A stretch of 32,537 bases of DNA from Rhodocyclaceae bacterium (GTDB lineage Bacteria > Pseudomonadota > Gammaproteobacteria > Burkholderiales > Rhodocyclaceae): NCBI GenBank assembly GCA_024709955.1, contig JANJVS010000054.1:1-32537 (forward strand). The letters are read 5' to 3'. Position 1 is the first letter of the stretch. Each line of letters starts with the position of its first letter. Below the pieces are notes generated by a model, which saw only the letters and a program-made list of their open reading frames with translations, did not search any database and was not told the origin of the DNA. Position numbers and translations under genes: made by a program. Shown here piece by piece: positions 8,385 to 31,944 of the stretch.

Positions 8385-8421
8385 CCCGCCAGGCGATGCC
8401 GCAACGACAAGGAGGTCTGCA

Positions 8422-13231: not shown

Positions 13232-13236
13232 CGCCG

Positions 13237-13275: not shown

Positions 13276-13291
13276 AATACCCTCCGGTCCG

Positions 13292-13774: not shown

Positions 13775-13848
13775 GGCCCGATCCTAGCAAAACCCCGCTG
13801 CGTCAGTGCTGGCGTCGCCTCGCGGCGCCGCGTCGCGGGGACGTGAAA

Positions 13849-13886
13849 CGAAAAGGGGGGCGGCCATCCGGCCGCCCCCCTTTTCG
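13849..13886 (-). terminator. Strong terminator after napC
   Basis: This is a perfect 17-base-pair stem (arms 13849-13865 and 13870-13886) with an ATCC loop. GGGGGG and CCCCCC runs flank AAAA/TTTT ends, so each strand carries a T-tract at the stem end. It begins 15 bases after the napC stop in the direction of transcription. It should separate napC from napF. Confidence 0.85.
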
Positions 13887-13901
13887 CCTTGTACGACGTT
13901 G

Positions 13902-14474: not shown

Positions 14475-14535
14475 TTTTAATGCCTCCCCTTGTTGCGAAT
14501 GGGGGCATGTTAGGCCCGCGCGGCGCCAAAACGCC

Positions 14536-14549
14536 TTGATCTAACTTAA
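14536..14549 (-). promoter_or_regulatory. FNR-like box upstream of napC
   Basis: On the minus strand TTAAGTTAGATCAA matches TTGAT-N4-ATCAA at eight of ten positions, with a perfect downstream half. TAACAT (14512-14507) lies at the spacing expected for a -10 in a class II promoter. The rest of the 232-base gap 14475-14706 holds a 7-pair hairpin (14647-14665) and weak matches to the dispersed repeat. Confidence 0.55.
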
Positions 14550-14706
14550 GTCGCAATGGATTCGAGAGGCGCTCCCCGGGGAAGGGCGGACAGCCTGCCG
14601 GCGCTGACAGGTTCGCAAGGTGTGCGGCGGCGCCGATTCCCCGCTTCCGCCGTCCGCTACGGCGGGGAGCCGCAGCGGCTTCATCTGCGCCGACCGATGC
14701 CGACGC

Positions 14707-15543: not shown

Positions 15544-15998
15544 GACTGGTTTTCCTTGAGCAGCGCCTCGGCGCGTTGACGTTCTTCCTCGGAGAGCGGC
15601 GTGTCGGCGACCTGGCGCTCGCGCTTCCTCAGGTAGGCGACCAGCGCGCCGATACCGACGAGAAGCAGGATGAAGGGGCCGGCCCAGAGCAGGTAGGTCT
15701 GCGGCTTGACCTGCGGCCGGTAGAGCACGAAATCGCCGTAGCGGCTGACCAGGAAATCCTTCACCTCGGTGTCGGTCTTGCCTTCCTTGATCAGGTCGCG
15801 CACCTCGCGGCGCAGGTCCTTGGCCAGGTCGGCCTGGGAGCCGGCGAGCGATTCGTTCTGGCAGACCAGGCAGCGCAGTTCGGTGGCGATGTTCACGAGG
15901 CGCTGTTCGACCACCGGGTCCTCGGCGAGCGGCTTGGCCTCCTGCGCGGCGACGTTGAGGCAGCACAGCAGGGCGGCGAGCGCGAGCGGCTTCTTCAT
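15540..15998 (-). CDS. ccmH: CcmH (CcmL-type) thiol-reducing subunit of haem lyase
   Basis: CcmH keeps the CXXCH thiols of apocytochrome c reduced before haem ligation. The 152-residue protein has a Sec signal peptide (MKKPLALAALLCCLNVAAQ), the diagnostic LRCLVCQNES redox motif (Cys43, Cys46) in a three-helix domain, and one C-terminal membrane helix (YLLWAGPFILLLVGIGALVAYL). This is the short form without the CcmI-like TPR half found in E. coli, and CcmI is encoded next to it. ATG 15998 overlaps the ccmG stop by four bases. The track frame starting at 16307 is an extension into ccmG. Confidence 0.95.
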   Translation of the reverse strand: MKKPLALAALLCCLNVAAQEAKPLAEDPVVEQRLVNIATELRCLVCQNESLAGSQADLAKDLRREVRDLIKEGKTDTEVKDFLVSRYGDFVLYRPQVKPQTYLLWAGPFILLLVGIGALVAYLRKRERQVADTPLSEEERQRAEALLKENQS

Positions 15999-16519
15999 TT
16001 GTTGAGCTCCTGCGCCAGCGGGATGATCTTGTTCTGCAGCACCTCGGGGGTGATCGGGCCGATCTGCTTGAAGCGGATCACCCCCTGCTTGTCGATCAGG
16101 TAGGTTTCCGGCACGCCATATACGCCGTAGTTGATGCCGACGCGGCCGTCGGCGTCGTAGGCCGAGAGCAGGTAGGGATCGCCGAAGCGCGCCAGCCAGC
16201 GCTGGCCGTCCTCGCGCTTGTCCTTGTAGTTGAGGCCGACGATCGGCACCGTGCCGGTCTTGCCGAACTCGACCAGCAGCGGATGCTCCTCGCGGCAGGA
16301 CACGCACCAGGAGGCCCAGACGTTGAAGAGCCAGACCTTGCCCAGCATTTCCTTGGGCGAGAAGCTCTGGTCCGCCGCATGGAGCCGCGGCACGCTGAAG
16401 TCCGGCGCCGGCTTGCCGATCAGCGGCGAGGGCACCTCGCGCGGGTTGAGGTTGAGGCCGACCGCGAGCAGCGCGACCAGGACGATGAAGATGCCGAGGG
16501 GCAGGAGGAACTTGTTCAT
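15995..16519 (-). CDS. ccmG: CcmG/DsbE thioredoxin-like protein
   Basis: This membrane-anchored periplasmic thioredoxin passes reductant to CcmH or apocytochrome. The 174-residue protein has an N-terminal helix (FLLPLGIFIVLVALLAVGLNL), the family's LIGKPAPDFSVPRL, and the active site WASWCVSCREEHP (Cys72, Cys75). A later cis-Pro segment is YGVYGVPETYLIDKQGVIRFKQIGPI, typical of CcmG. It overlaps ccmF and ccmH by four bases each. Confidence 0.96.
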   Translation of the reverse strand: MNKFLLPLGIFIVLVALLAVGLNLNPREVPSPLIGKPAPDFSVPRLHAADQSFSPKEMLGKVWLFNVWASWCVSCREEHPLLVEFGKTGTVPIVGLNYKDKREDGQRWLARFGDPYLLSAYDADGRVGINYGVYGVPETYLIDKQGVIRFKQIGPITPEVLQNKIIPLAQELNK

Positions 16520-18465
16520 GCGGTGGCTCCGGCGGCGGCCGCGGTGGCGGCGGCGGACTGCTTGACGCGGATGCGGTAGCGGCGGTCGGCGGCGGCCAGC
16601 AGGCCGCCGAGGGACATCAGCAGGCAGCCGCCCCAGATCCAGTCCACAAAGGGCTTGAAATAGACGCGCACCGCCCAGGCCTCGCCTTCCAGCGGCTCGC
16701 CGAGGGAGACATAGACGTCACGCGTCAGGCCGGCATCGATGGCAGCCTCGGTCATCGGCATCGCCGAGGTGTCGTAGTTGCGCTTCTCCGGATAGAGCGT
16801 GCGCAGCGGCTTGCCATCCTTCGTGAGCTCGAAGCTGCCGCGCGCGGCGACGTAGTTCGGACCGCGCACGTCATGCACGCCGAGGAACTTGAAGGTATGG
16901 CCGCCGACCGTCACCGTTTCGCCGGGGGACATGCGCACGTCGCGCTCCTCTTCGTAGGTGCTCACCATCGCCACGCCGACGACGAAGGCGGCGAGGCCGC
17001 AGTGGGCGATCTGCATGCCCCACCAAGAGGCGGTGGGCTTGCCGGTCTTGAAGCGCTCGACCGTCTGCAGGACGATCGCCGCGGCGATCCAGACGGCCAG
17101 CGCCAGCGCCAGGGCGACGTAGGCGTGCCACTCGCCCGCAAGCAGCGGCAGGCCGGCGCCGGCCAGCACGGCGGCGAGGGCGGCGGGCCAGAGCCTGCGC
17201 AGGATCGGCCCGATCTCGGCATGCTTCCAGCGCGCGATCGGCCCGGCGGCGACCAGCACCAGCAGCGGCAGCATGATCGGCACGAAGACGGCGTTGAAAT
17301 AGGGCGGCCCGACCGAAAGCTTGCCCATGCCCAGCGCGTCGATCAGCAGCGGGTAAAGGGTGCCGAGCAGCACGGCGCCGCAGGCGACCACCAGCAGCAC
17401 GTTGTTGACCAGCAGCAGGGTCTCGCGCGAGAGCAGCGCGAAGCGGCCGCCGAGGCTCACCTTCGGCGCGCGCGCGGCGAACAGCAGCAGCGAGCTGCCG
17501 ACGACGATGGCGAGCAGGATCAGGATGAAGATGCCGCGGCGCGGGTCGGTGGCGAAGGCATGCACCGAGGTGAGCACGCCGGAACGCACCAGGAAGGTGC
17601 CGAGCAGCGAGAGCGAGAAGGCGGCGATCGCCAGCAGCACGGTCCAGTTCTTGAAGCTGCCGCGCTTTTCGGTGACGGCGAGGGAGTGGATCAGCGCGGT
17701 GGCGACCAGCCAGGGCATGAAGGAGGCGTTCTCCACCGGATCCCAGAACCACCAGCCGCCCCAGCCGAGCTCGTAGTAGGCCCACCAGGAGCCGAGCGCG
17801 ATGCCGAGGGTAAGGAACACCCAGGCCACCGTGGTCCAGGGGCGCGACCAGCGCGCCCAGGCGGCGTCGAGCTGGCCGGCGAGCAGCGCGGCGATGGCGA
17901 AGGCGAAGGCCACCGACATGCCGACGTAGCCCATGTAGAGCAGGGGCGGGTGGAAGACCAGGCCCGGATCCTGCAGCAGCGGGTTGAGCGAGCGGCCTTC
18001 CTCGACGGCGGGGAGCAGGCGCTCGAAGGGGCTGGAGGTCAGCAGCACGAAGGCGAGCAGGCCGAAGGTGACGAGGCCGAGCACGCCGAGCACGCGCGCC
18101 ACCATCGCCTCGGGCAGCCGGCGCGAGAACAGCGCGACGGCCTGCGCCCAGCCGGTGAGCATCAGCACCCAGAGCAGCAGCGAGCCCTCGTGACCGCCCC
18201 ACACCGCCGAGATCCGGTACAGGGTCGGCAGCTGGGTGTTCGAGTGCTGCGCGACGTACTCGACCGAGAAGTCGTTGCTGTAGAAGGACCAGGTCAGGAC
18301 GAGGAAGGAGAACAGCACGAGCAGGAAGGCGGCGGCGGTCGCCGGCCGCGCCAGCGCGACCCATTGGGGCTGGTTGCGCTGGGCCCCCAGCAGCGGCAGC
18401 ACGCCCTGCACCAGGGTGACGAGCAGGGCGAGCATCAGGGCGAAGTGGCCTAGTTCCGGAATCAT
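16516..18465 (-). CDS. ccmF: CcmF, haem lyase core subunit
   Basis: CcmF is the large membrane protein that ligates haem to apocytochrome c. The 649-residue length is typical. It starts MIPELGHFALML and has many membrane helices and the WWD signature GGWWFWDPVENASFMPW (about residues 235-250). HEGSLLLWVLMLTGWAQ and a large periplasmic domain before the last helix (VRVYFKPFVDWIWGG) are also typical. The C-terminal tail after the last helix is Ala-rich. It follows ccmE after 12 bases and overlaps ccmG. Both strands show very long shadow frames here, as expected of GC-rich coding DNA. Confidence 0.97.
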   Translation of the reverse strand: MIPELGHFALMLALLVTLVQGVLPLLGAQRNQPQWVALARPATAAAFLLVLFSFLVLTWSFYSNDFSVEYVAQHSNTQLPTLYRISAVWGGHEGSLLLWVLMLTGWAQAVALFSRRLPEAMVARVLGVLGLVTFGLLAFVLLTSSPFERLLPAVEEGRSLNPLLQDPGLVFHPPLLYMGYVGMSVAFAFAIAALLAGQLDAAWARWSRPWTTVAWVFLTLGIALGSWWAYYELGWGGWWFWDPVENASFMPWLVATALIHSLAVTEKRGSFKNWTVLLAIAAFSLSLLGTFLVRSGVLTSVHAFATDPRRGIFILILLAIVVGSSLLLFAARAPKVSLGGRFALLSRETLLLVNNVLLVVACGAVLLGTLYPLLIDALGMGKLSVGPPYFNAVFVPIMLPLLVLVAAGPIARWKHAEIGPILRRLWPAALAAVLAGAGLPLLAGEWHAYVALALALAVWIAAAIVLQTVERFKTGKPTASWWGMQIAHCGLAAFVVGVAMVSTYEEERDVRMSPGETVTVGGHTFKFLGVHDVRGPNYVAARGSFELTKDGKPLRTLYPEKRNYDTSAMPMTEAAIDAGLTRDVYVSLGEPLEGEAWAVRVYFKPFVDWIWGGCLLMSLGGLLAAADRRYRIRVKQSAAATAAAAGATA

Positions 18466-18477
18466 GGCGAAGCCTCG

Positions 18478-18918
18478 TTATTGTTTGAGGGTTTGCCCGG
18501 TTTTCTGGGCCTGGTCGACGGCGTGCTGGGCCTCGGGAGGCATGTAGTTCTCGTCGTGTTTGGCGAGCACCTCGCTGGCGGCGAACACGCCGTCGGCGCC
18601 GATGCGGCCCTGGGCCACCGCGCCCTTGCCTTCCATGAACAGGTCGGGAAGGATGCCGGTGTAGGCGACCGGCACTTCCTTGGCCGTGTCGGTGATGACG
18701 AAGTGCACGGTGAGGTTGTCGCGCCGCAGCGAGCCTTCCTTGACCATGCCGCCGACGCGGAAGGTCTTGCCCTGCGGCGCCTTGCCCTCGGCGATCTCGG
18801 TGGGGGTGACGAAGAAGGCAATGTTGCTGTTGAGGGCGTTCAGCACCAGCGCGGCGGCGATGCCCAGCGCCGCGAGGCCGCCGCCGATCAGGGCGATGCG
18901 TTTGTGACGAGGTTTCAT
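18478..18918 (-). CDS. ccmE: CcmE, periplasmic haem chaperone
   Basis: CcmE covalently binds haem and carries it from CcmABCD to CcmF. The 146-residue protein has one N-terminal helix ([23 protein letters not shown]), a beta-barrel OB-fold, and the haem-binding motif AKHDENYMP with His121 and Tyr125. [15 protein letters not shown] and [20 protein letters not shown] are conserved. Its ATG overlaps the ccmD stop by four bases. Confidence 0.97.
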
Positions 18919-19097
18919 TGTTGGTCCAGGTTTTCCGCGATGCGTTCGCGGCGCAGGCTGCGCAAAATATCCTTACGACGCTTCGACGCGAGGATTGGTT
19001 CCGCGATCATGAGCAGCGCGCAGACGCCGAAGCTGCCCCAGACGTAGAGACCGTAGCCGCCCATGGCGAAGAAGGCGGCGGGGGATTCCCAGTTCAT
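18915..19097 (-). CDS. ccmD: CcmD, small membrane adaptor of haem export
   Basis: This 60-residue single-pass protein helps release holo-CcmE from the CcmABC complex. [34 protein letters not shown] is the family pattern (AxGGYxxYVWxS), followed by a basic cytoplasmic tail [16 protein letters not shown]. It is absent from the track as a separate ORF because the 286-residue frame 18915-19775 includes it. The start at 19097 is fixed by its four-base overlap with ccmC and by the family's length. Confidence 0.93.
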
Positions 19098-19852
19098 TGT
19101 CCGGTTCCTTTCACCTCGGGCAGTTCCTTGACCCACTCGGTGTGGGCCTCGCGTTCCAGGATGATGGCGCGCACGCGGGTCAGGGCGACGGCGATCGAAT
19201 ACATCCAGAAAGCCAGCGCCATGATCAGCATGCCCCAGAGCATGGTGGCCGCCATGGTCGGCGCCTTGGTCAGCGAGACCGAGGCGCCCTGGTGCAGGGT
19301 GTTCCACCATTTCACCGAGAAATAGATGATCGGCACGTTGACCACGCCCACCAGCGCGAGAATGGCCCCGGCCTTGTCGGCGCGGCGCGGATCGTCGATC
19401 GCCGCCTGCAGCGCGATGAAGCCGATGTAGAGGAAAAACAGGATCAGCGCCGAGGTCAGGCGCGCGTCCCAGACCCACCAGGCGCCCCACATCGGCTTGC
19501 CCCAGAAGGCGCCGGTCCAGAGGGAGAGGAAGGCCATGATCGCCCCCGTGGGCGCGAGGGCCTGGGCCATCATGCCGGACAGGCGCGTGTTGAGGGCGAG
19601 GCCGAGGGCTGCCCAGCCGGCCATGACGATATAGATGAACATCGACATCCAGGCCGCCGGCACGTGGATGAAGATGATGCGGTAGCCCTCGCCCTGCTGG
19701 AAGTCGGTGGGGGCGGCGAAGAAGGTGATCCACAGGCCGATGCCGCCGAAGATCGCCGCGAGCGCCCAGAACCACGGGATCATCTTGCCGGCGAGCGGAT
19801 AGAAGCTCTGCGGCGAGGCGTACTTGAACCAGTTGATGATCTTGTTATTCAA
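19094..19852 (-). CDS. ccmC: CcmC, haem handling membrane protein
   Basis: CcmC loads haem onto CcmE. The 252-residue protein has six membrane helices, the WWD motif WGAWWVWDARLTS (122-134), and a flanking conserved His in IFIHVPAAWMSM (His63). A second conserved His lies in WWNTLHQGASVS. The start at 19852 is eight bases downstream of the ccmB stop. The C-terminal tail is hydrophilic and cytoplasmic. Confidence 0.97.
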   Translation of the reverse strand: MNNKIINWFKYASPQSFYPLAGKMIPWFWALAAIFGGIGLWITFFAAPTDFQQGEGYRIIFIHVPAAWMSMFIYIVMAGWAALGLALNTRLSGMMAQALAPTGAIMAFLSLWTGAFWGKPMWGAWWVWDARLTSALILFFLYIGFIALQAAIDDPRRADKAGAILALVGVVNVPIIYFSVKWWNTLHQGASVSLTKAPTMAATMLWGMLIMALAFWMYSIAVALTRVRAIILEREAHTEWVKELPEVKGTGQ

Positions 19853-19860
19853 GCGAATTC

Positions 19861-20526
19861 CTACTCAAGAGCGATTCTCAGGGCGGCCGTGGTCGCCCAC
19901 GGCGCGAAAAACACAGCCAGCGCGAGCAGCGCGGCCAGCAGCGACAGATGCCCGCCGGCGCCCAGGCCGGAAATGTGCGCCTCCACCGCGCCGGCGCCGA
20001 AGATCAGGGCCGGCACGTAGAGCGGCAGCACCAGCAGGGAAAGCAGCACGCCGCCGCCGCGCACGCCCAGCGTCAGCGCCGCGCCGATCGCACCGATCAG
20101 CGACAGCAGCGGGGTGCCGAGCAGCAGCGCCACCACGAGGATGCCGAGCGCCTCGGCGTCCAGGTCGAACTGGATGCCCAGCACCGGCGCCAGCAGCACC
20201 AGCGGCAGGCCGGTGGTGATCCAGTGGGCGGCGATTTTACCCGTTATCAGCAGGCCCAACGGGGTGGGAGACAGCACCATCTGCTCAAGAGTTCCATCGG
20301 CATGGTCGGGCGCGAACAGGCGCGCCAGGCCGAGCATGGTGGCGAGCAGCGCCGCCACCCAGAGAATGCCCGGGGCGATCTTCTTGAGCAGCGCGGCCTC
20401 GGGGCCGATGCCGAGGGGAAACAGGCTGACGACGATGACGAAGAAGAACAGGGCGGTGAGCACCTCGCTCTTCCTGCGCATCGCCAGCAGCAGGTCGCGG
20501 CGGATCACGGCGAGGATCGCGTTCAT
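19861..20526 (-). CDS. ccmB: CcmB, ABC transporter permease for haem release
   Basis: CcmB is the six-helix membrane partner of the CcmA ATPase. ATG 20526 gives MNAILAVIRRDLLLAMRRKSEVLTALFFFVIVVSLFPLGIGPE, the typical family N-terminus, and a 221-residue protein, the normal size. WVAALLATMLGLARLFAPDHADGTLEQMVLSP is also conserved. The track's 394-residue frame extends into ccmA out of frame and was rejected. The four-base overlap with ccmA supports the start chosen. Confidence 0.96.
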   Translation of the reverse strand: MNAILAVIRRDLLLAMRRKSEVLTALFFFVIVVSLFPLGIGPEAALLKKIAPGILWVAALLATMLGLARLFAPDHADGTLEQMVLSPTPLGLLITGKIAAHWITTGLPLVLLAPVLGIQFDLDAEALGILVVALLLGTPLLSLIGAIGAALTLGVRGGGVLLSLLVLPLYVPALIFGAGAVEAHISGLGAGGHLSLLAALLALAVFFAPWATTAALRIALE

Positions 20527-21128
20527 ATCTTGAGCACCTTGCCGTTGGGCAGCGGCATGCTCTGGTGGCTGGTGAGGATCGCCATGCCGCCGCCGGCCAG
20601 ATGTTCCTCGATCAACGCGGAGAGCATGTCCACGGCCTTGACGTCGAGGGCGGTGAAGGGTTCGTCGAGAATCCACAGCGTGGCCTTGCGCACCGCCAGC
20701 CGGGCGAGCAGCACGCGGCGCTTCTGGCCGGCGGAAAGGAAGCGCACGGCGAGATCCTCGCGGCCGCGCAGGCCGAAACGCGCCAGCGTCCCGAGGGCCT
20801 CGGTCTCGTCGAGGGGGGCGCCGTCGAGCTGGGCGGCGAGCAGCAGGTTCTCGAAGGGCGTGAGCTCTTCCTTCACCGCGCCATGGTGGCCGAGGAAGAG
20901 CATTTCGCGCCGGTAGTCCTCGGCGAGCTCGCGGATCGGCGCGCCGCGCCAGAAAATCTGGCCTTCCGCGGGCGGGGCGAGACTGGAAAGGATGCGCAGC
21001 AGGCTGGTCTTGCCGGCGCCGTTCTCCCCCTGCACGTGCAGCCATTCGCCCGGGCCGACCGCGAGATCGAGCCCGGCGAACAGGCGGCGTTCGCCGCGAA
21101 CACAGGAAAGGCCGGTGGCGGTCAGCAT
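20523..21128 (-). CDS. ccmA: CcmA, ABC transporter ATPase
   Basis: CcmA hydrolyses ATP to release haem-loaded CcmE from the CcmABCD complex. The 201-residue protein has Walker A GENGAGKTS (34-42), the signature LSAGQKRR (131-138, the family's variant of LSGGQ), and Walker B LWILDEPF (151-158). TSHQ follows as the switch His. It is the first gene of the nine-gene ccmABCDEFGHI operon, divergent from the rnf operon across a 527-base gap. A TTGACC at 21178-21173 on its strand could be a -35, but I saw no matching -10. Confidence 0.96.
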   Translation of the reverse strand: MLTATGLSCVRGERRLFAGLDLAVGPGEWLHVQGENGAGKTSLLRILSSLAPPAEGQIFWRGAPIRELAEDYRREMLFLGHHGAVKEELTPFENLLLAAQLDGAPLDETEALGTLARFGLRGREDLAVRFLSAGQKRRVLLARLAVRKATLWILDEPFTALDVKAVDMLSALIEEHLAGGGMAILTSHQSMPLPNGKVLKI

Positions 21129-21655: not shown

Positions 21656-22534
21656 ATGGAATCTATCTCGAGTTTGACGGTGGCGGGCGCCTTCATGGCC
21701 GTGCTCGGCGTGGCCCTGGCCGCGCTGCTGGCCTTCGCCAACCGCAAGCTGTTCGTCTATGAAGACCCGCGCATCGAGCAGGTCGAGGAGCTGCTGCCCA
21801 AGTCCAACTGCGGGGCCTGCGGCATGCCCGGCTGCCGCGGTTTCGCCGAGAAGGTGGTGAGCGGCGACGTCGTGCCGGCGCAGTGCACCGTGAGCTCGCC
21901 GCAGCAGCGTCAGGACATCGCCGACCTGCTCGGCGTCGCGGCGGGCAGCGTCGAGAAGAAGGTGGCGCGGCTCGCCTGCGCGGGCGGCAAGCATGTCGCC
22001 TTCACGCGCGCGCGCTACGCCGGCCTCAAGACCTGCCGCGCGGCGGCGGTGGTCGGCGGCGGCGGCAAGGAATGCGCCTGGGGCTGCCTCGGCCTCGGCG
22101 ACTGCGAAGTGGTCTGCAATTTCGACGCCCTCCATCTGGACGAGCACGGCCTGCCGGTGGTCGATGCCGACAAGTGCTCGGCCTGCAACGACTGCGTCGA
22201 GGTCTGCCCCAAGGGCCTGTTCTCGCTGGAGCCGATCAGCCATCGCCTCTGGATCGCCTGCAAGAACAAGGCGGACGGCGAGACGGCCGAGAAATCCTGC
22301 GAGGTGGCTTGCACCGCCTGCGGCAAGTGCGTCGCCGACGCGCCGCCCGGCCTGATGCAACTCGACGGCCAGCTCGCGGCGGTGCGCTACGAGCTCAACG
22401 CCTGGGCCACGCGCGCGCCGATCGAGCGCTGTCCAACCGGCGCCATCGTCTGGTTCGACACCCCCAACAAGCCGGTCAAGGGCGCGGCCGCGAAAAAGAT
22501 CCTGCGGCAGGACGCGCTGCCGACGCTGAATTGA
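21656..22534 (+). CDS. rnfB: RnfB, multi-cluster ferredoxin-type subunit of the Rnf complex
   Basis: RnfB is the membrane-anchored iron-sulfur subunit thought to accept electrons from ferredoxin. The 292-residue protein has one N-terminal helix (VAGAFMAVLGVALAALLAFANRKL), the RnfB-specific CGACGMPGC cluster site (52-60, with Cys77), then many more Cys. These include LACAGG (108), TCRAA (127), CAWGCLGLGDCEVVC (140-154), CSACNDCVEVCP (174-185), ACTACGKC (219-225) and Cys259. This long type resembles RnfB of anaerobes rather than the roughly 190-residue E. coli RsxB. ATG 21656 was chosen because the membrane helix follows at once; the in-frame ATG at 21380 would add about 90 Arg-rich, non-conserved residues. 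nifJ follows after 20 bases. Confidence 0.88.
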   Translation: MESISSLTVAGAFMAVLGVALAALLAFANRKLFVYEDPRIEQVEELLPKSNCGACGMPGCRGFAEKVVSGDVVPAQCTVSSPQQRQDIADLLGVAAGSVEKKVARLACAGGKHVAFTRARYAGLKTCRAAAVVGGGGKECAWGCLGLGDCEVVCNFDALHLDEHGLPVVDADKCSACNDCVEVCPKGLFSLEPISHRLWIACKNKADGETAEKSCEVACTACGKCVADAPPGLMQLDGQLAAVRYELNAWATRAPIERCPTGAIVWFDTPNKPVKGAAAKKILRQDALPTLN

Positions 22535-22554: not shown

Positions 22555-25500
22555 ATGTTGACGAAACTGTTCCAGTCCGCCAAGAGCGAAACCGACCAGA
22601 AGCAGGTCAAGTATCCGGGCGTCCGCGATGCCGTCGATGGCAACACCGCCGTCATCCATGTCGAGCGCGAGGCCTCGGACGCCGCCGGCGCCTACCCGAT
22701 CACACCCTCGACGCAGATGGGCGAGTACTGGGCCGAGGAGGTCGCCAAGGGCCATCTCAACATCTCCGACAAGCCGCTGATCTTCATCGAGCCGGAGTCC
22801 GAGCACGCCGCCGCCGGCGTCACCGCCGGCATGGCGATGACCGGTCTGCGCGCCACCAACTTCTCCTCGGCGCAGGGCGTCGCCTTCATGCACGAGTCGC
22901 TCTACGGCGCCGTCGGCAAGCGCCTGCCCTACCTGCTCAACATGGGCTGTCGCGCCATCACCAAGGCCTCGCTCAACGTGCATTGCAGCCACGACGACTA
23001 CCACTGCGTGGACGACACCGGCTTCATCCAGGTGATGGCCAAGAACGCCACCGAGTGCGCCGACCTCAACCTGATCGGCCGCAAGGTCGCCGAGCTGTCG
23101 CTGACGCCGGCGATCGTCGGCCAGGACGGCTTCATCACCACCCACCTGATCGAATCCTGCGTGCTGCCCGAACGCGAGCTGGTGGCCGAATACCTCGGCA
23201 AGCCGGACGACCTGATCGACACGCCGACCCCGGCGCAGGCCATGCTCTACGGCTCGAAGCGCCGTCGCGTGCCGGCGATCTGGGACGTGGATACCCCGCT
23301 GGTGTCCGGCTCGGTGCAGAACCAGGATGCCTACATGCAGGCCACCGCCGGCCAGCGTCCCTACTTCTTCGACCATATCGAGGAGATCACCGACGCCTGC
23401 ATGGCCGAATACGCCGGCCTGACCGGGCGCCAGTACCAGCGCGTGTCCACCTACAAGTGCGAGGACGCCGACTACGTGATCGTCGGCATGGGCAGCATGA
23501 TCGTGCAGGCCGAGGCCGTCGCCGACTACCTGCGCGAGACGCGCAAGCTCAAGGTCGGGGTCGTCAACCTCACGATGTTCCGCCCCTTCCCGGGCGATCT
23601 GCTGGGCAAGGTGCTCAAGGGCAGGAAGGGCGTCGTCGTGCTGGAGCGCACCGACCAGCCGCTCGCCGAGGACCTGCCGCTGATGCGCGAAGTGCGCGCC
23701 ACCCTGGTCAAGTGCATCGAGAACGGCATGGTGCTCGACGGCGACAAGCCCTATGCGGGCTATGCGAGCTACGGCGCCGGCGAGATGCCGCGCCTCTACT
23801 CCGGCTGCTACGGCCTCGGCTCGCGCGACCTGCAGCCCGAGGGCCTGATCGGCGCCATCGAGAACATGCTGCCCGAGGGCGCCAAGCGCAAGTTCTTCTA
23901 CCTCTCGATCGACTTCGCGCGCGACCCGCTCAATCCGAAGGACGAGGTGCACCAGCAGGACCTGCAGGAGAAGTATCCGCAGATCAAGGCGCTCGGCATC
24001 CGCGGCAGCGAGAACCCCAACCTGCTGCCCAAGGGTGCCATCACCGTGCGCATGCACTCGGTCGGCGGCTGGGGCGCGATCACCACCGGCAAGAACCTGG
24101 CGATGACCCTTTACGAGCTGCTCGGCTGGGACATCAAGGCCAACCCGAAATACGGTTCCGAGAAGAAGGGCCAGCCGACCACCTACTACCTTTCCGCCGC
24201 GCCGGAGCCGATCCGTATCAACTGCGAATACACCTACGTGGATGTCGTGCTCTCCCCCGACCCCAACGTGTTCGGCCACTCGAACCCGCTCTCCGGCCTC
24301 AAGAAGGGCGGCTTCCTGATCATCCAGTCGAACCTCGGTGACGAGACCTGGGCGAGCTTCCCGGTCTGGGCGCAGAAATTCATCGTCGATAACGACATCC
24401 GCGTCTACCATCTCGACGCCTTCCAGATCGCGCGCGAGGAGGCCGGTTCGCCCGAGTTGCAGTTGCGCATGCAGGGCATCGCCTTCCAGGGCGCCTTCTT
24501 CGCCGCCAGCCCGGTGATGCAAAGCGCCAACCTGACCGAGAACGCGCTGTTCGCGGCGATCGAGGCGCAACTGCAGGCCAAGTTCGGCGGCAAGGGCGCG
24601 CGTGTCGTGCAGGACAACCTGCGCGTCGTCAAGCGCGGCTACACCGAGCTCAAGGAGATCACCGACAAGCAGGTCGGCGTGACGCGCAAGCAGCTCGTCA
24701 AGAAGGACGCCGGCCTGCCGATCATGCTGCAGCAGCTGCCGGCCGGCGACGGCAAGATCGCCGACATCCACCGCTTCTGGGAACAAACCGGCAACTTCTA
24801 TCTGACCGGCAAGGGCTCCGACAACCTCGTCGATCCCTTCATCGGCACCGCCGTGATGCCCGCCGCCACCGGCGTTTACCGCGACATGACCGGCATCCGC
24901 TTCGAGCATCCGGTGTGGATCGCCGAGAACTGCACGGCCTGCGGCAACTGCTACACCGAGTGCCCGGATTCGGCGATCCCCGGCCTGGTCAGCTCGATCG
25001 GCGACGTCTTCAACACCTGCATCAACCGCATCGAGACCGGCGGCACGCCGACGCGCTTCCTGCGCCGCGCCTCGCGCACCGTCGAGAAGAAGCTGCGCAA
25101 CCTGGTCGATACCGTCGGCGGCCCGGTACGGCCGCTGATCGACCGCGCCATGAGCGAGACCGTCGCCGAGGCGCCCGAGGCCGACCGCCACAGCATGTCG
25201 TCCGAATTCACCCTGCTGCAGGTGCAGCTCGCCGGCTTCCAGTTCGCCGCCACCAAGCCCTACTGGAACCAGAAGGAGAAGAAGGCCAAGGGCAGCGGCG
25301 GCCTGTTCTCGATCACCATCAACCCCTACACCTGCAAGGGCTGCGCGCTGTGCGTCACCGTCTGCGAGGACGACGCGCTCAAGATGGTCACCCAGACCGA
25401 GGAGTCCACCGACAAGCTGCGCCGCGACTGGAACTTCTGGCTCGACCTGCCGACCACGCCGAAGGAATACAGCCGCATCGACAGCCTCGACGAGAAGATC

Positions 25501-27471
25501 GGCGCGCTGGAAACCCTGCTGCTCGACAAGCGCAACTACGGCTCGATGAACTGCGGCGACGGCGCCTGCCTGGGCTGCGGCGAGAAGACCGCGATCCACC
25601 TGTTCACCGCGACGGTCACCGCGCTGATGCAGCCGCGCGTCAAGGCCTTCGTCGAAAAGCTCGACGACCTGATCGCCCGCCTCGAACAGCACATGCGCAT
25701 CAAGCTCGCCTCGGCGGTGGATCTCACCGACGCCAGCGCCGTGGTGAAGGCCGTCGAAGCCGCCGGCCAGCACGACCTGACCCTGTCCAACCTCGCCGCC
25801 AAGCTCACCGAGAACAAGCCCTCGCAGCTGCTCGACCCGCAGTGGGTGAAGAACACCGCCCAGCTGCTCGAAAAGCTCAAGGACCTCAAGTGGCGCTACG
25901 TCGAGGGCCCGACCAAGCGCGGCCGCGCCGAGATGGGCATCGTCAACTCCACCGGCTGCACCTCGGTGTGGGGCTCCACCTATCCGTTCAGCCCCTATCC
26001 CTTCCCCTGGACCTCGCACCTGTTCCAGGACTCGCCCTCGGTGGCGATGGGCCTGTTCGAGGGCCACATGGCCAAGATGGCCGACGGCTTCAAGGCGGTG
26101 CGCATGGCCGAGAAGGAACTCGCCGGCGACTACCTGCCGGACCGCGACGACGACTTCTTCCGCCGCTTCACCTGGAGCAAGTTCTCCGAGGACGAGTGGC
26201 AGCTCTGTCCGCCGGTCGTCTCCCTCGGCGGCGACGGCGCGATGTACGACATCGGCTTCCAGAACCTCTCGCGCGCCATGATGTCGGGCATGCCGATCAA
26301 GGTGCTGGTGGTCGACACGCAGGTGTATTCGAACACCGGCGGCCAGGCCTGCACCTCGGGCTTCATCTCGCAGGTCTCGGACATGGCGCCCTTCGGCGCG
26401 GCGCAGCGCGGCAAGCAGGAGACCCGCAAGGAGATCTCGCTGATCGGCCTCGCGCACCGTACCTCCTACGTCAGCCAGAGCACGATCGCCCACGTTAACC
26501 ACCTGATCGAGAGCTACATCGACGGCCTCAACAGCCGTCGTCCGGCGCTGTTCAACATCTACGCCGTCTGCCCGCCCGAGCACGGCGTCGGCGACGACAA
26601 GAGCTTCGACCAGAGCAAGCTCGCGGTCGAGAGCCGCGCCTATCCGCTGTTCCGCTTCGACCCGGACGCCGGCATCACCTTCCACGAGACGGTCAGCCTC
26701 GAAGGCAACCCGGCGCCCGACGCCGACTGGCCGACCTACACCCTCAAGTACCGCGACGAGTCCGGCGCCGAGCAGAGCATGGAGCTGCCGATGACCTTCG
26801 CCGATTTCGCCGCCACCGAGGCGCGCTTCCTCAAGCAGTTCAAGAAGGCGCCGCCGGAGACCTGGAACGAGAACATGGTCATGCTCGCCGACTTCCTGAA
26901 GCTGGACGCCGACGAGCGCGAGGGGAAGTTCCCCTTCATCTGGGCCGTCGACGGCAAGAACCGCCTGATGCGCCTGCTGGTCACCGAGGATCTGGTGCGC
27001 TCGACCGAGGAGCGCCTGCACTTCTGGCGCCAGCTCAAGAACATCGCCGGCGTCGATGCCCGCGCCGGCGACGAGAGCGCGGTGGCAGAGCGCGTGCGCG
27101 CCGACCTGCTGGCCAAGATCTCCGCCAGCCTCGGCCTCGGTGGCGGCGACGGCGCGCCAGCCGCGGCCACCGTCGCGCCAGCGCCGACTTCCGCCGGCGC
27201 GGCGGAGGGCGCGCGCGGCGACTACGAGCCGGTCTGGGTTGAAACGCCCGAGTGCACGGCCTGCGACGAGTGCATCAACCTCGCGCCGAAGACCTTCGCC
27301 TACAACGACCAGAAGCTGGCGATCGTCATCGATCCGAAGGGCGCGAAGTTCGCCGACATCGTCAAGGCGGCCGAGAAGTGCACCGCCGGCTGCATCCATC
27401 CCGGCACGCCGTGGAACATGGCCGAGCCGGGCGTCGACAAGCTGATGGCGCGCGCCGCGAAGTTCAACTGA
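22555..27471 (+). CDS. nifJ: Pyruvate:ferredoxin oxidoreductase-like enzyme (NifJ family) with C-terminal ferredoxin domain
   Basis: This is a thiamine-diphosphate enzyme oxidising a 2-oxoacid, probably pyruvate, to acyl-CoA and CO2 with electrons to ferredoxin. The 1638-residue chain shows domains in order: the pyrimidine-binding domain (AYPITPSTQMGEYWAEE, 46-62; EPESEHAA near 79), the Cys sites CTACGNCYTECP (from 793) and CKGCALCVTVCE (from 927), CGDGACLGCGEK (from 1000), and the TPP Mg motif GGDGAMYDIGF (1225) with NTGGQACTSG (1260). A Gly/Ala/Pro linker (about 1530-1560) then leads to a ferredoxin-like domain CTACDECINLAPKTF (from 1567) and CTAGCIHPGTP (from 1609). Ordinary members are about 1170-1200 residues, so it is roughly 400 longer, with extra sequence around 820-920 and 1010-1100. 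Substrate is inferred. It sits between rnfB and rnfC; AGGAG precedes the ATG. Confidence 0.88.
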   Translation: MLTKLFQSAKSETDQKQVKYPGVRDAVDGNTAVIHVEREASDAAGAYPITPSTQMGEYWAEEVAKGHLNISDKPLIFIEPESEHAAAGVTAGMAMTGLRATNFSSAQGVAFMHESLYGAVGKRLPYLLNMGCRAITKASLNVHCSHDDYHCVDDTGFIQVMAKNATECADLNLIGRKVAELSLTPAIVGQDGFITTHLIESCVLPERELVAEYLGKPDDLIDTPTPAQAMLYGSKRRRVPAIWDVDTPLVSGSVQNQDAYMQATAGQRPYFFDHIEEITDACMAEYAGLTGRQYQRVSTYKCEDADYVIVGMGSMIVQAEAVADYLRETRKLKVGVVNLTMFRPFPGDLLGKVLKGRKGVVVLERTDQPLAEDLPLMREVRATLVKCIENGMVLDGDKPYAGYASYGAGEMPRLYSGCYGLGSRDLQPEGLIGAIENMLPEGAKRKFFYLSIDFARDPLNPKDEVHQQDLQEKYPQIKALGIRGSENPNLLPKGAITVRMHSVGGWGAITTGKNLAMTLYELLGWDIKANPKYGSEKKGQPTTYYLSAAPEPIRINCEYTYVDVVLSPDPNVFGHSNPLSGLKKGGFLIIQSNLGDETWASFPVWAQKFIVDNDIRVYHLDAFQIAREEAGSPELQLRMQGIAFQGAFFAASPVMQSANLTENALFAAIEAQLQAKFGGKGARVVQDNLRVVKRGYTELKEITDKQVGVTRKQLVKKDAGLPIMLQQLPAGDGKIADIHRFWEQTGNFYLTGKGSDNLVDPFIGTAVMPAATGVYRDMTGIRFEHPVWIAENCTACGNCYTECPDSAIPGLVSSIGDVFNTCINRIETGGTPTRFLRRASRTVEKKLRNLVDTVGGPVRPLIDRAMSETVAEAPEADRHSMSSEFTLLQVQLAGFQFAATKPYWNQKEKKAKGSGGLFSITINPYTCKGCALCVTVCEDDALKMVTQTEESTDKLRRDWNFWLDLPTTPKEYSRIDSLDEKIGALETLLLDKRNYGSMNCGDGACLGCGEKTAIHLFTATVTALMQPRVKAFVEKLDDLIARLEQHMRIKLASAVDLTDASAVVKAVEAAGQHDLTLSNLAAKLTENKPSQLLDPQWVKNTAQLLEKLKDLKWRYVEGPTKRGRAEMGIVNSTGCTSVWGSTYPFSPYPFPWTSHLFQDSPSVAMGLFEGHMAKMADGFKAVRMAEKELAGDYLPDRDDDFFRRFTWSKFSEDEWQLCPPVVSLGGDGAMYDIGFQNLSRAMMSGMPIKVLVVDTQVYSNTGGQACTSGFISQVSDMAPFGAAQRGKQETRKEISLIGLAHRTSYVSQSTIAHVNHLIESYIDGLNSRRPALFNIYAVCPPEHGVGDDKSFDQSKLAVESRAYPLFRFDPDAGITFHETVSLEGNPAPDADWPTYTLKYRDESGAEQSMELPMTFADFAATEARFLKQFKKAPPETWNENMVMLADFLKLDADEREGKFPFIWAVDGKNRLMRLLVTEDLVRSTEERLHFWRQLKNIAGVDARAGDESAVAERVRADLLAKISASLGLGGGDGAPAAATVAPAPTSAGAAEGARGDYEPVWVETPECTACDECINLAPKTFAYNDQKLAIVIDPKGAKFADIVKAAEKCTAGCIHPGTPWNMAEPGVDKLMARAAKFN
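27168..27187 (-). repeat. Dispersed repeat, copy 5 (inside nifJ linker)
   Basis: On the minus strand TCGGCGCTGGCGCGACGGTG differs from the core at three positions. It encodes part of the linker TVAPAPTSAG between the oxidoreductase and its ferredoxin tail. Confidence 0.6.
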
Positions 27472-27527: not shown

Positions 27528-28895
27528 ATGAAACTACTCAGCTATTTTCGCGGCGAAGCCTTCCAGCGCGGCGTGCATCCGCCGGCCAACAAGCTGACCG
27601 CGCGGCAGAAGATCCGCCGCCTGCCGTTCCCGCCGAAGGTGGTCGTGCCGCTCTCGCAGCACATCGGCAAGGCGCCCCACCCGATCGTCAAGGTCGGCCA
27701 GGAAGTGGTGCGCGGCGAGCCGATCGCGCGCACCGACGACTGGCTGTCGGTGCCCCATCACGCGCCCGTCACCGGCGTGGTCGAGTTCATCGGCCTGCGG
27801 CCCGGCGCGCGCGGACCGTGGGTCGAGTCCATCGTCATCCGCGCCCATCCGGGCGCGACGCAGCAGGATCTCTGGGGCCAGCCGCGCGACATGGCGTCGC
27901 TGTCCGGCGCCGACATCCTGCAGGCGGTCTGGGACACCGGCATGGTCGGCCTCGGCGGCGCCGCCTTCCCGACCCACGCCAAGCAAACCCTGCCGAAGCA
28001 GGCCCACGTGCAAACGCTGGTGGTGAACGGCTGCGAATGCGAGCCCTATCTGACCTGCGACCATCGCGTCATGATCGAGCAGGCCGACGACCTGGTGACG
28101 GGCATCCGCTACGCGATGCGCGCCACCGGCGCCGTGCGCGCCATCGTCGGCATCGAGGACAACAAGCGCGACGCGCGGGACGCCGTGCGCGCGGCCATCG
28201 AAAAAGCTGGCAAGGTGCCGGAGGGGGAGATCCACGCCGAGCTGGTGCCGACCAAGTATCCGCAGGGCTCCGAGAAGATGCTGATCATGGCGCTGTTCGG
28301 CGTGGAAATTCCCGCCGGCGGCCTGCCGGTGTCCCTTGGCATGGTGGTCAACAACGTCGGTACGCTGGCCGCGCTGGGCCGGTTGCTGCCGGCCGGGCGC
28401 GGCCTCACCGAGCGCGTCGTCACGGTCACCGGCCCCGGCGTGGCGCGGCCCGGCGACTACATCGTGCCGCTCGGCACGCCGCTCTCCTTCATCCTCGACC
28501 ATGCCGGCGCCCCGAACGCGGATGCCCGGCAGATCATCCTCGGCGGGCCGATGATGGGCCAGGCCGCCGCTTCCCTTGACGTGCCGATCACCAAGGGCAT
28601 CTCCGGCGTGCTGGTGATGCGCGCCGACCAGGTTGCCGACGGCCTGGCGCGCAGGACCTTTCCGTGCATCAAGTGCGCCGAGTGCGTCGAGTCCTGCCCG
28701 ATGGGCCTCAATCCCTCGCAGCTCGGCATGCTGGCGGCGAAGCGCGAATACGACCTGATGGGCTCGCGCTACCACCTCGGCGAATGCTTCGAGTGCGGCT
28801 GCTGCTCCTACGTCTGTCCCTCCAACATCCCGCTGGTGCAGCAGTTCCGCGTCGCCAAGCAGATCCTGCGCGAGAAAGCGATGGCCGCCAAATGA
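27528..28895 (+). CDS. rnfC: RnfC, NADH-binding subunit of the Rnf complex
   Basis: RnfC carries FMN/NADH sites and two [4Fe-4S] clusters and links the complex to NAD. The 455-residue protein opens with FRGEAFQRGVHPPANK, has a barrel-sandwich region, GMVGLGGAAFPTHAK and NGCECEPYLTCDH of the Nqo1-like nucleotide domain, then CIKCAECVESCP (380-391) and CFECGCCSYVCP (420-431). It lacks the long Ala/Lys-rich C-terminal extension of E. coli RsxC. Its stop overlaps the rnfD start by four bases. AGGA lies before the ATG. Confidence 0.96.
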   Translation: MKLLSYFRGEAFQRGVHPPANKLTARQKIRRLPFPPKVVVPLSQHIGKAPHPIVKVGQEVVRGEPIARTDDWLSVPHHAPVTGVVEFIGLRPGARGPWVESIVIRAHPGATQQDLWGQPRDMASLSGADILQAVWDTGMVGLGGAAFPTHAKQTLPKQAHVQTLVVNGCECEPYLTCDHRVMIEQADDLVTGIRYAMRATGAVRAIVGIEDNKRDARDAVRAAIEKAGKVPEGEIHAELVPTKYPQGSEKMLIMALFGVEIPAGGLPVSLGMVVNNVGTLAALGRLLPAGRGLTERVVTVTGPGVARPGDYIVPLGTPLSFILDHAGAPNADARQIILGGPMMGQAAASLDVPITKGISGVLVMRADQVADGLARRTFPCIKCAECVESCPMGLNPSQLGMLAAKREYDLMGSRYHLGECFECGCCSYVCPSNIPLVQQFRVAKQILREKAMAAK

Positions 28896-30055
28896 GTATC
28901 GAGATCCGTTCCGCGCCCCACATCAAGGGGCCGAAGAGCGTCGAGCAGATCATGCGCCATGTCGTCTGGTCGCTGCTGCCGATCTGTGCCTTCTACGTCT
29001 ATCAGTACGGCCTGTCGGCCATGGCCTCGCTCGTCGTCGTCACCGGCAGCTGCCTGCTCGCCGAGCGCTGGTTCGTCAAGACCGGCACCCAGTCCGGCGA
29101 CATCTCCGACTATTCGGCGGTGATCACCGGCCTGCTGCTGGCGCTTTCGCTGCCGCCGGGCTTCCCGCTCTGGATGGGCGCCGTCGCCGGCCTCGTCGCC
29201 ATCGCGCTGGGCAAGGCGCTGTTCGGCGGCATCGGCTTCAACGTCTTCAACCCGGCGCTGGTCGGGCGCGCCTTCGCCCAGGCCGCCTTCCCGCAGGCGA
29301 TCGCCACCTACACGCCGTCCTTCCTGCCGGGCCGCTTCCACGAGATGATCCCGTCCTCGATGGCGCTGCCGCTGATGCAGCCGGCCGACGTCGCCGCCTG
29401 GCTCAAGCTCAAGCAGCTCGACGCGCTCGCCGGTGCCACGCCGCTGGCCAAGTGGAAGTTCGAGGGCGTGCTGGCCGGTGCCGAGGAACTCATCACCTCG
29501 CTCTCCGGCCACATGGCGGTCGGCCCCTCGCCGGCGCTGATCCTGGTCTGCGGCGCCTACCTCGCCCTGCGCCGCTACATGGACTGGCGCATCCCGGCGG
29601 CGATCCTCGGCAGCGCCGCCCTGACGGCCTGGCTGCTGTTCGCCTTCGACGGCACGCGCTACCCGAACCCCTTCTTCATGCTGTTCTCCGGCGGCCTGAT
29701 CCTCGGCGCGGTGTACATGGCGACCGACATGGCGACCTCGCCGGTGACGCCCAGGGGCATGTGGGTGTATGGCGCGCTGATCGGCATCCTCACCGTGGTG
29801 ATCCGCTACTACAGCGGCCTGCCGGAGGGCGTCATGTACGCGATCCTGCTCGGCAACGCCGCGACGCCGCTGATCGAGAAGATCACCCAGCCGACGCCCT
29901 TCGGCAAGGGCGCCTCGTCGCTCCTCGGCCGCCAGAAGAAGGGCGCCTCCTATCCGCTGCATCCGGGCTACATCTCGCGCGAGGACGCCGGCGCCGTGAC
30001 GCCGAAGAAGCGCTTCCTGCCGAACAAGCCGAAGAAACAGGACCGAGAGCCATGA
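28892..30055 (+). CDS. rnfD: RnfD, flavinylated membrane subunit
   Basis: RnfD is an integral membrane subunit with covalently bound FMN. ATG 28892 (ATGA overlap with rnfC) gives 387 residues, opening MSIEIRSAPHIKGPKSVEQIM. Many membrane helices are visible, and the FMN-attachment Thr183 is in DALAGATPLAKW (GATPL). GDISDYSAVITGLLLALSLPP and GGIGFNVFNPALVGRAF are conserved RnfD/NqrB motifs. A hydrophilic tail of about 40 residues rich in Lys/Pro follows the last helix. The track's 463-residue frame from 28664 is an upstream extension inside rnfC and was rejected. Confidence 0.95.
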   Translation: MSIEIRSAPHIKGPKSVEQIMRHVVWSLLPICAFYVYQYGLSAMASLVVVTGSCLLAERWFVKTGTQSGDISDYSAVITGLLLALSLPPGFPLWMGAVAGLVAIALGKALFGGIGFNVFNPALVGRAFAQAAFPQAIATYTPSFLPGRFHEMIPSSMALPLMQPADVAAWLKLKQLDALAGATPLAKWKFEGVLAGAEELITSLSGHMAVGPSPALILVCGAYLALRRYMDWRIPAAILGSAALTAWLLFAFDGTRYPNPFFMLFSGGLILGAVYMATDMATSPVTPRGMWVYGALIGILTVVIRYYSGLPEGVMYAILLGNAATPLIEKITQPTPFGKGASSLLGRQKKGASYPLHPGYISREDAGAVTPKKRFLPNKPKKQDREP

Positions 30056-30738
30056 ACGCCGAAGCGACCCTGCCGCAAACGACGCCCGCCGCGGCGATGG
30101 TCCGCACCCTCGGGCTGATCTCCGCCATCTGTGGCCTGATCATCGTCGCCGCCTACCAAGGCACCTACGACGCCGTGCAGGAGAACAAGCGCATCGCCGT
30201 CGAGCGCGCGGTGTTCAAGGTGATCCCCGCCGCCAAGTCGATCGCCGAGTACGTCGCCACCGCAGCGGGCGAAGTCGAAAAACTCGGCGCCGGCGGCACG
30301 GTGCCGGCCGGCGCCGTGAAGTTCTACGCCGGTTACGACGCCGCCGGCAAGCTCGCCGGCATCGCCGCCGAGGGCGGCGCCAAGGGCTACGCCGACACGG
30401 TGCGCATCCTGTTCGCCTGGGACCCGGAGAAAGCCGCAGTGACGGGCTTCGGCGTGGTCTCCTCGCGCGAGACGCCGGGCATCGGCGACAAGATCCTCGT
30501 CGACAAGGACTTCCTCGCCAACTTCCCCCTGGAGGCCAGGCTCGCCGCCGACGGCCAGGCGCTCGCCCACCAGATCCGCGCCGTCAAGCACGGCAGCAAG
30601 GCCAATCCCTGGGAAGTGGATGCCATCGCCGGCGCGACCATCACCTCGCGCGCCGTCGGCAAGGCGATCAACGACACGGCGCAGGCGCTGCTGCCGCGCA
30701 TCGCGCCGCATCTCGACAAGCTTAAGGAAAAGTCATGA
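30052..30738 (+). CDS. rnfG: RnfG, periplasmic flavinylated subunit, with a repeat-encoded segment
   Basis: RnfG carries covalent FMN on the periplasmic side. The 228-residue protein has an N-terminal helix (MVRTLGLISAICGLIIVAAYQGTY), GFGVVSSRETPGIGDKI (the RnfG/NqrC motif) and the flavin-attachment site DAIAGATITSRAV with Thr196. ATG 30052 overlaps the rnfD stop by four bases. An exact copy of the dispersed 20-base repeat lies in frame at residues 77-84, translated KLGAGGTV, in a stretch that is not a conserved family motif. It therefore looks like an in-frame insertion tolerated in a surface loop. Confidence 0.94.
   Translation: MNAEATLPQTTPAAAMVRTLGLISAICGLIIVAAYQGTYDAVQENKRIAVERAVFKVIPAAKSIAEYVATAAGEVEKLGAGGTVPAGAVKFYAGYDAAGKLAGIAAEGGAKGYADTVRILFAWDPEKAAVTGFGVVSSRETPGIGDKILVDKDFLANFPLEARLAADGQALAHQIRAVKHGSKANPWEVDAIAGATITSRAVGKAINDTAQALLPRIAPHLDKLKEKS
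30284..30303 (+). repeat. Dispersed repeat, copy 6 (inside rnfG)
   Basis: This is an exact 20-base core preceded by AAAAAC, as in copy 1. It is in frame in rnfG and translates to LGAGGTV after a Lys codon. Confidence 0.8.
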
Positions 30739-31373
30739 GCCAGACGACTGTACGTACCTGGGACGAGTTCATGGAGGGCGTCTGGCGCCAGAACCCGGTG
30801 TTCGTCATGGTGCTGGGCCTCTGCCCCGCGCTGGCGGTGACCGTATCGGCGGTGAATGCCCTCTCGATGGGATTGGCCACCACCTTCGTGCTGACCTGCT
30901 CCTGCGTGCTGGTGTCGCTGCTGCGCAAGCTGATCCCGAAGGAGGTGCGCATCGCCACCTACATCGTCATCATCGCCACCTTCGTCACGGTGGTGGATTA
31001 TCTGATCCAGGCGGTCAGCCTCGCCCTCTACGACGCGCTCGGCGCCTTCATCCAGCTCATCGTGGTGAACTGCATCATCCTCGGCCGCGCCGAGGCCCAC
31101 GCCTCGAAGAACCCGCCGTTCAAGGCGATGGTGAACGCCCTCGGCATGAGCCTCGGCTTCACCATCGGTCTGTTCGCGCTCGGCGCCGTGCGCGAGATTC
31201 TCGGCGCCGGCAAGCTGTTCGGCGTCGCGCTGTTCGGCGCGAACTTCCAGCCCTGGGTCGTCATGGTGCTGCCGCCCGGCGGCTTCTTCGTGCTCGGCAT
31301 GTGGCTGCTGGTGTTCGCCGCCGTTGCCCGGCGCAAGCAGCGCAAACTCGCGGAGGTGGCACAAAATGCATGA
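30735..31373 (+). CDS. rnfE: RnfE, membrane subunit
   Basis: RnfE pairs with RnfA in the membrane core; the homologous NqrD/NqrE pair holds an Fe-S centre between subunits. The 212-residue protein has about six helices and the conserved Cys30 (VLGLCPALAVT) and Cys113 (IVVNCIILGRAEA), the positions expected to bind metal. It overlaps rnfG by four bases and rnfA by eight. Nothing unusual in length. Confidence 0.96.
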   Translation: MSQTTVRTWDEFMEGVWRQNPVFVMVLGLCPALAVTVSAVNALSMGLATTFVLTCSCVLVSLLRKLIPKEVRIATYIVIIATFVTVVDYLIQAVSLALYDALGAFIQLIVVNCIILGRAEAHASKNPPFKAMVNALGMSLGFTIGLFALGAVREILGAGKLFGVALFGANFQPWVVMVLPPGGFFVLGMWLLVFAAVARRKQRKLAEVAQNA

Positions 31374-31944
31374 GAGCGCCTGGCAGATCTTCATCAGCGC
31401 CTTCCTCGCCAACAACTTCGTGCTGGCGATGTTCCTCGGCCTGTGTCCCTTCATCGGCGTCTCGGGCAAGCTGGAGACCGCCGCGCCGATGGGCGCGGCG
31501 ACCACCTTCGTGATGCTGGTCGCCTCGTTGTGCGCCTACGGTCTCAACCTGCTGCTCACGAGCTTCAATCTGGAGTTCCTGCGCCTGATCGCCTACATCG
31601 TGATCATCGCCTCGGCGGTGCAACTGGTCGAGATGGTCCTGAAGAAATACAGCCCGGCCCTGTTCCGCGCCCTCGGCATCTACCTGCCGCTGATCACCAC
31701 CAACTGCGCGGTGCTCGGCGTCGCCCTGTTCCAGACCGCGCGCGAGTACGACTTCGTCCAGTCCGTGACCTTCGCCGTCGGCGCCGGCGCCGGCTTCACC
31801 CTCGCCCTGGTGTTGATGGCCAGCGTGCGCGAGCGCCTGACGCTCTCCGACGTGCCGTCGGTGGCGCAGGGCACCGCGCTGTCGCTGATGCTCGCCGGCA
31901 TCCTCTCGCTCGCCTTCATGGGCTTCGCCGGCCTCGGCGGCTAA
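31366..31944 (+). CDS. rnfA: RnfA, membrane subunit
   Basis: RnfA is the second subunit of the membrane metal-binding core. ATG 31366 gives MHESAWQIFISAFLANNFVLAMFLGLCPFIGVS, 192 residues, the usual size. Cys27 (GLCPFIGVS) and Cys114 (TTNCAVLGV) mirror those of RnfE. The start overlaps the rnfE stop by eight bases. The track's earlier start at 31324 lies within rnfE. It is followed after 109 bases by a small Cys-rich membrane gene. Confidence 0.96.
   Translation: MHESAWQIFISAFLANNFVLAMFLGLCPFIGVSGKLETAAPMGAATTFVMLVASLCAYGLNLLLTSFNLEFLRLIAYIVIIASAVQLVEMVLKKYSPALFRALGIYLPLITTNCAVLGVALFQTAREYDFVQSVTFAVGAGAGFTLALVLMASVRERLTLSDVPSVAQGTALSLMLAGILSLAFMGFAGLGG

Follow-up and report, generated by a model that had tools for sequence, protein, structure and literature searches.

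Pyruvate:ferredoxin oxidoreductase (PFOR) and the membrane complex Rnf are usually depicted as linked through a freely diffusing ferredoxin pool. A locus in a Rhodocyclaceae draft genome (assembly GCA_024709955.1, contig JANJVS010000054.1) raises the question of whether this link can also be built into the oxidoreductase itself, as a PFOR-type gene ending in a ferredoxin domain lies inside an rnf operon there. The whole stretch of DNA analyzed, hereafter the window, comprises 32,537 nucleotides. It belongs to a gammaproteobacterial genome (in the GTDB sense; 95% complete, 4% contaminated), whose closest named relatives belong to the Rhodocyclaceae, Sulfuritalea among them.

The fused gene (22555..27471, + strand) is a single frame without interruption and encodes a 2-oxoacid:acceptor oxidoreductase of 1638 aa with a C-terminal tethered ferredoxin. 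It starts 20 bases 3' of rnfB (21656..22534, +), which encodes a long form of RnfB with 292 aa and 20 Cys (Pfam FeS PF04060, 3e-13), and ends 56 bases 5' of rnfC (27528..28895, +; 455 aa; Complex1_51K 1e-46, RnfC_N 5.8e-25), the gene found directly downstream in related loci as well. The same strand continues with RnfD (28892..30055; PF03116, 2.5e-95), RnfG (30052..30738; FMN_bind, 7.8e-15), RnfE (30735..31373; Rnf-Nqr, 2.2e-64) and RnfA (31366..31944). The last of these was assigned from its translation, its position after RnfE, and RnfA/E-type matches at the equivalent place in related loci. With rnfB, C, D, G, E, and A together in a single cluster, the gene content identifies the ion-pumping membrane complex Rnf, a predicted ferredoxin:NAD oxidoreductase. 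Upstream of the operon, the window holds napB, a gene for a NapF-like four-cluster ferredoxin, and a ccm cytochrome c maturation cluster (12779-21045), mostly on the strand opposite to the rnf operon.

The body of the fused protein contains the Pfam domains POR_N (1.2e-44), POR (9.5e-28), PFOR_II, and TPP_enzyme_C in the same order as in PFOR, and its top PDB matches were the PFORs of M. thermoacetica and D. africanus. Domain V carries two [4Fe-4S] motifs (24931..25365, +; C793/796/799/803 and C927/930/933/937), which are separated by an insertion of ~110 residues. Alignment to solved PFORs located the ligands of the proximal cluster (C1005, C1008, C1135, and C1339) and the TPP motif (GDG 1226-1228 and N1260) within 25567..26571 (+). 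All eight domain-V cysteines were kept in 16/16 fused proteins, and so were T50, E83, and R133 (TPP/carboxylate), the GDG, N1260, and the four proximal cysteines. Since the catalytic and cluster residues are all present, the fused protein is expected to be catalytically active and to contain four clusters. The domain order and the TPP, carboxylate, and proximal Cys residues place it in the PFOR / 2-oxoacid:acceptor oxidoreductase superfamily. It scored 403.8 bits against TIGR02176, the pyruvate-specific NifJ equivalog, far under the cut-off of 911.35; the protein is therefore filed as PFOR-type, and pyruvate is a substrate that we infer.

A first-pass annotation, made from the letters and the open reading frames, had placed a ferredoxin-like domain at the C-terminus of the oxidoreductase. 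This domain (27226..27468, +; residues 1558-1638) comprises the cluster ligands C1567, C1570, C1573, and C1609, an invariant HPG, and a C-terminal helix; the reading frame was found intact and the motifs lie where the annotation had put them. Searched alone against Pfam, the tail matched Fer4_13 at 6.3e-9, with 36.8 bits against a curated cut-off of 24.5, and among PDB entries it matched D. africanus ferredoxin I (FdI) at 2.6e-7, so that the match is well above chance. Its cysteines follow the pattern C1567-x2-C1570-x2-C1573-x35-C1609-x3-C1613. The four ligands were without variation in sets of 25 and 56 diverse relatives, and several relatives have I or V in place of C1613, which identifies C1567, C1570, and C1573 together with C1609 as the ligands. 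C1613 thus appears dispensable and need not bind the cluster. The annotation had drawn the last ligand from the distal cysteine pair; this was right for C1609, but a joint role for both cysteines was dropped on account of the replacements. The single-cluster layout with four cysteines was also recognized correctly, although it is the normal state of the D. africanus FdI type and not an unusual one, and the same applies to the Ala (residue 1577) in place of the usual extra Cys.

The structure prediction agreed with this assignment. An AlphaFold2 model of residues 1530-1638, based on 56 aligned sequences, reached pLDDT values of 87-95 in the domain, and the best PDB match with Foldseek was 1fxr, D. 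africanus ferredoxin I (E 7.3e-5), on which the model superimposed with an rmsd of 0.7 Å over 58 columns and a TM of 0.86 over the target. The modeled fold is accordingly that of a ferredoxin, rather than a different fold or one with cysteines too distant to bind a cluster. Together with the Fer4_13 match, this makes it near certain that the domain is real and a ferredoxin of the D. africanus FdI type, with a single predicted [4Fe-4S] cluster.

Between the PFOR body and this domain lies a Gly/Ala/Pro-rich segment of 29 residues (27139..27225, +; residues 1529-1557), as the annotation had noted. Its pLDDT was mostly <50 in both the model of residues 1530-1638 and a larger one of residues 760-1638. 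The larger model (879 aa) was poor overall (pTM 0.37) and unusable for judging how the domain docks on the PFOR body; its tether was again disordered. Across the 81 fused proteins, the tether varies in length and sequence while the flanking domain is constant: it is A/G/S/P-rich, ranges from short to about 118 residues, and includes A/P repeats in Rubrivivax. Within the domain, all 81 share the x35 spacing from C3 to C4 and a tail of 21 residues. The tether is thus predicted to be flexible. We hypothesize that the tethered ferredoxin is a swinging-arm carrier between the PFOR-type enzyme and RnfB, a reading that we consider probable and in favor of which we count the pairing of an invariant domain with a variable A/G/P/S-rich tether. 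Alternatively, the domain could sit permanently on the PFOR dimer, adding a fourth cluster in line and widening the exit port, while soluble ferredoxin still feeds Rnf. Such a relay would extend the in-line wire that domain V already provides in known PFORs (PMC5020499), and it would fit the lack of length variation inside the domain. However, a tether that is predicted to be disordered, reaches from short to >100 residues, and includes A/P repeats in Rubrivivax suits a mobile arm, and one relative has three tandem copies of the domain, which leaves permanent docking unlikely.

The distribution of the fusion was surveyed at several levels. The domain was present in 24/61 close relatives and in 29/369 genomes of the class. 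When the domain profile was run across the phylum, 3/399 genomes had a match, all of the same order as the host, so that the result says little on other classes. A scan of named genomes returned at least 572 related stretches, and the best 80 of these were examined, in a ranking by similarity to the present domain that favors the fused type. They include Rhodocyclaceae, Rhodocyclus, Rubrivivax, Rhodoferax, Sedimenticola, Thiodiazotropha, and Thiothrix, as well as tubeworm symbionts and one SAR324 genome. In 80/80 of these best loci the domain is the C-terminal part of a PFOR from this one subfamily, and some of these proteins are interrupted by contig ends or frame breaks. Among the same 80, rnfC is next downstream, with L100 stopping at the contig edge, and rnfB is immediately upstream wherever the contig extends that far. 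The arrangement recurred in 16 further fused loci, the exceptions being L069, with rnfB at the opposite end of the operon, and L077, with a contig that begins within the fused gene. The search for the fusion in other genomes that the first-pass annotation had called for thus found it in many, inside the rnf operon, and an assembly artefact of one genome is ruled out by this presence in many. In L120, part of the ferredoxin domain is doubled in tandem ahead of the full copy, either as an assembly error or as a partial duplication. We found no description of the fusion in the open-access literature, where absence is not proof, and the words "PFOR" and "fused" are absent from a 2025 Rnf review. 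The arrangement is therefore conserved in many bacteria and apparently undescribed within that literature.

With the PFOR body alone as the query, a search of the class recovered 11 uninterrupted orthologues (>=64% identity), all from fusion-carrying genomes. The next relatives of the body are two-subunit enzymes with 42-45% identity, which are without the ferredoxin domain. No rnf genes were seen around two of these that had full flanks (L208 and L210). In a tree of the domain, every fused copy fell on one side of a branch supported by 97/94 and the others on the opposite side, which fits a single origin of the fusion to PFOR; the domain is too short to resolve the deeper forks.

The strict rnfB-PFOR-rnfC order, combined with published facts on RnfB, FdI, and tethers, makes the swinging arm the best explanation. 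Cytoplasmic ferredoxin is known to deliver its electrons to the C-terminal cluster domain of RnfB (PMC12174285). The complex between D. africanus PFOR and its FdI is transient and weak (PMC10052474), a weakness that a tether would cure. Flux went up four- to five-fold in an engineered hydrogenase-ferredoxin tether and clearly depended on how long the linker was (PMC2847965). From the gene linkage, the conservation of the domain, and the known acceptor role of RnfB, we infer that the tail transfers electrons and hands them directly to RnfB, as the annotation had suggested, perhaps in place of a soluble carrier. The arm would load single electrons at the distal [4Fe-4S] cluster in domain V of the PFOR and unload them at the poly-cluster tail of RnfB. 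From there they would travel via RnfA/E, RnfG, and RnfD to RnfC and finally NAD, in a transfer coupled to ion pumping. In the forward direction, pyruvate oxidation would yield NADH and pump ions; in reverse, NADH and the ion gradient would power the reductive carboxylation of acetyl-CoA to pyruvate. The reductive direction seems at least as likely, because a pyruvate dehydrogenase is present in the host genome. In either direction, the tether would give the low-potential electrons a route of their own and keep them out of a soluble pool.

The presumed electron partner is the long RnfB of the window, whose 20 cysteines recur without exception in 69 orthologues from PFOR-linked operons. The genome encodes two other RnfB proteins, both short and with 14 Cys each, in a second rnf set on contig C19, alongside nifH, and a third on contig C41. 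No second ferredoxin of the Fer4_13 type was found in the host genome, this count being restricted to that type. The presence of nifH could suggest that the arm is a general acceptor that serves several low-potential partners, e.g. nitrogenase, and not RnfB alone. However, nifH shares its contig with a different rnf set, which weakens a link to nitrogen fixation, and the fused gene lies consistently within its own rnf operon. We therefore regard a general arm as very improbable and retain RnfB as the presumed partner of the proposed swinging ferredoxin.

Further evidence on the role of the domain came from ten sister loci (L060, L061, L064, L065, L070-L074, and L076), where the same domain ends a different protein of ~800-860 aa. 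The order of these operons is KorA-KorB-(ferredoxin protein)-RnfB-PFOR-like-RnfC, in some cases with sucC and sucD, and the PFOR-like genes sit between rnfB and rnfC or sucCD. The PFOR-like proteins are without the ferredoxin tail. They have lost the TPP residues and all proximal cysteines in 10/10 cases and have retained all eight domain-V cysteines in 10/10. These residue patterns are most simply explained by a transfer of catalysis to KorAB that left the PFOR-like protein as an electron wire, an apparent pseudoenzyme beside the catalytic KorAB. In L060, the ferredoxin domain (9649-9945) is in a shifted frame right past the end of the ~750-aa partner gene. The reading frames make a frameshifted tail of the neighboring gene more likely than a stand-alone ferredoxin gene, and the shift is probably either a real frameshift or a sequencing error.

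These loci also bear on whether the tail merely stabilizes the enzyme or protects it from oxygen, as C-terminal domain VII does in D. africanus PFOR. The two tails occupy the same position in the polypeptide, and domain VII is a long arm that reaches over the other subunit (PMC5020499). A protective tail would, however, hardly explain why its four cluster ligands are all invariant, or why sister operons retain the domain on other proteins even though the active site of their PFOR-like body is gone, and we give this explanation very little weight. We instead count it for the swinging arm that ferredoxin and domain-V clusters persist in the sister operons while the catalytic residues of the PFOR-like body are lost. 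Genes for korAB, "PFOR-like" proteins, and rnf have been reported in Endoriftia and its relatives, which are tubeworm symbionts (PMC6315080, PMC11636981), and the fused type occurs in tubeworm symbionts too. The parts of these two reports consulted mention neither a tethered ferredoxin nor a lost PFOR active site.

The domain also occurs away from Rnf. In L021, L022, and L059 it is part of a PFOR-derived protein, and rnf genes were absent from the stretch examined. L021 and L059 adjoin an Nfn-type pair, consisting of a DHODB-type Fe-S/flavin subunit and a Fer4_20/pyridine nucleotide oxidoreductase; Nfn is another enzyme class that uses ferredoxin. The L059 protein (6152-9067), which also adjoins KorAB, carries three tandem ferredoxin domains on Ala/Pro-rich linkers. 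The occurrence of the domain beside Nfn-type genes, once in three copies, is likewise counted for the swinging arm. With somewhat less confidence than for the window itself, we lean toward a natural class of swinging-arm ferredoxins on varied partners that wires 2-oxoacid oxidoreductases to Rnf or Nfn, with the dead sister PFOR acting as a pure wire between KorAB and RnfB.

If true, the tethered carrier would turn PFOR and Rnf into one insulated machine, and it could explain how facultative aerobes, sulfur oxidizers, and phototrophs keep electrons from leaking to oxygen or competitors during very low-potential chemistry. The wider pattern of a mobile domain, a dead PFOR as wire, and a three-copy arm would be more novel still if borne out. 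Cultured carriers exist in Rhodocyclus, Rubrivivax, Rhodoferax, and Sedimenticola, so that the question is directly testable.

Compared with the homodimeric PFOR / NifJ enzymes (D. africanus 1b0p, Moorella 6cin), the fused protein shares the domain order, the TPP- and carboxylate-binding residues, and three internal cluster motifs. It differs by insertions within domain V and ahead of the TPP domain, by a C-terminal ferredoxin where those enzymes have domain VII, and by being encoded between rnfB and rnfC. The ferredoxin domain itself is like D. africanus ferredoxin I (1fxr/1dax) in its fold, in the C-x2-C-x2-C motif with one distal Cys, in the Ala at the optional Cys, and in the CIH after the distal Cys. 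D. africanus FdI is soluble and transiently bound, whereas the present domain is fused to the oxidoreductase and has an extra conserved tail of 21 residues and the invariant HPG.

A PFOR with an electron acceptor fused at its C-terminus is known from Euglena and Cryptosporidium as pyruvate:NADP+ oxidoreductase (PNO), where the acceptor is a flavin reductase module making NADPH. In the present protein the fused acceptor is instead a ferredoxin, proposed to serve a membrane pump. Mobile carriers on Ala/Pro-rich linkers are also found in the lipoyl domains of pyruvate dehydrogenase E2, which occur in one to three copies. Their fold and carrier are unrelated and the likeness is one of analogy only, in which the three-domain L059 protein resembles the multi-lipoyl arms. 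The tether also has a counterpart in engineered hydrogenase-ferredoxin fusions, where a flexible linker insulates the electron path and linker length matters (PMC2847965). Those fusions are synthetic and place the ferredoxin on a hydrogenase, whereas here it is found on PFOR; the arrangement would thus be a natural counterpart to the ferredoxin-tethering strategy of synthetic biology.
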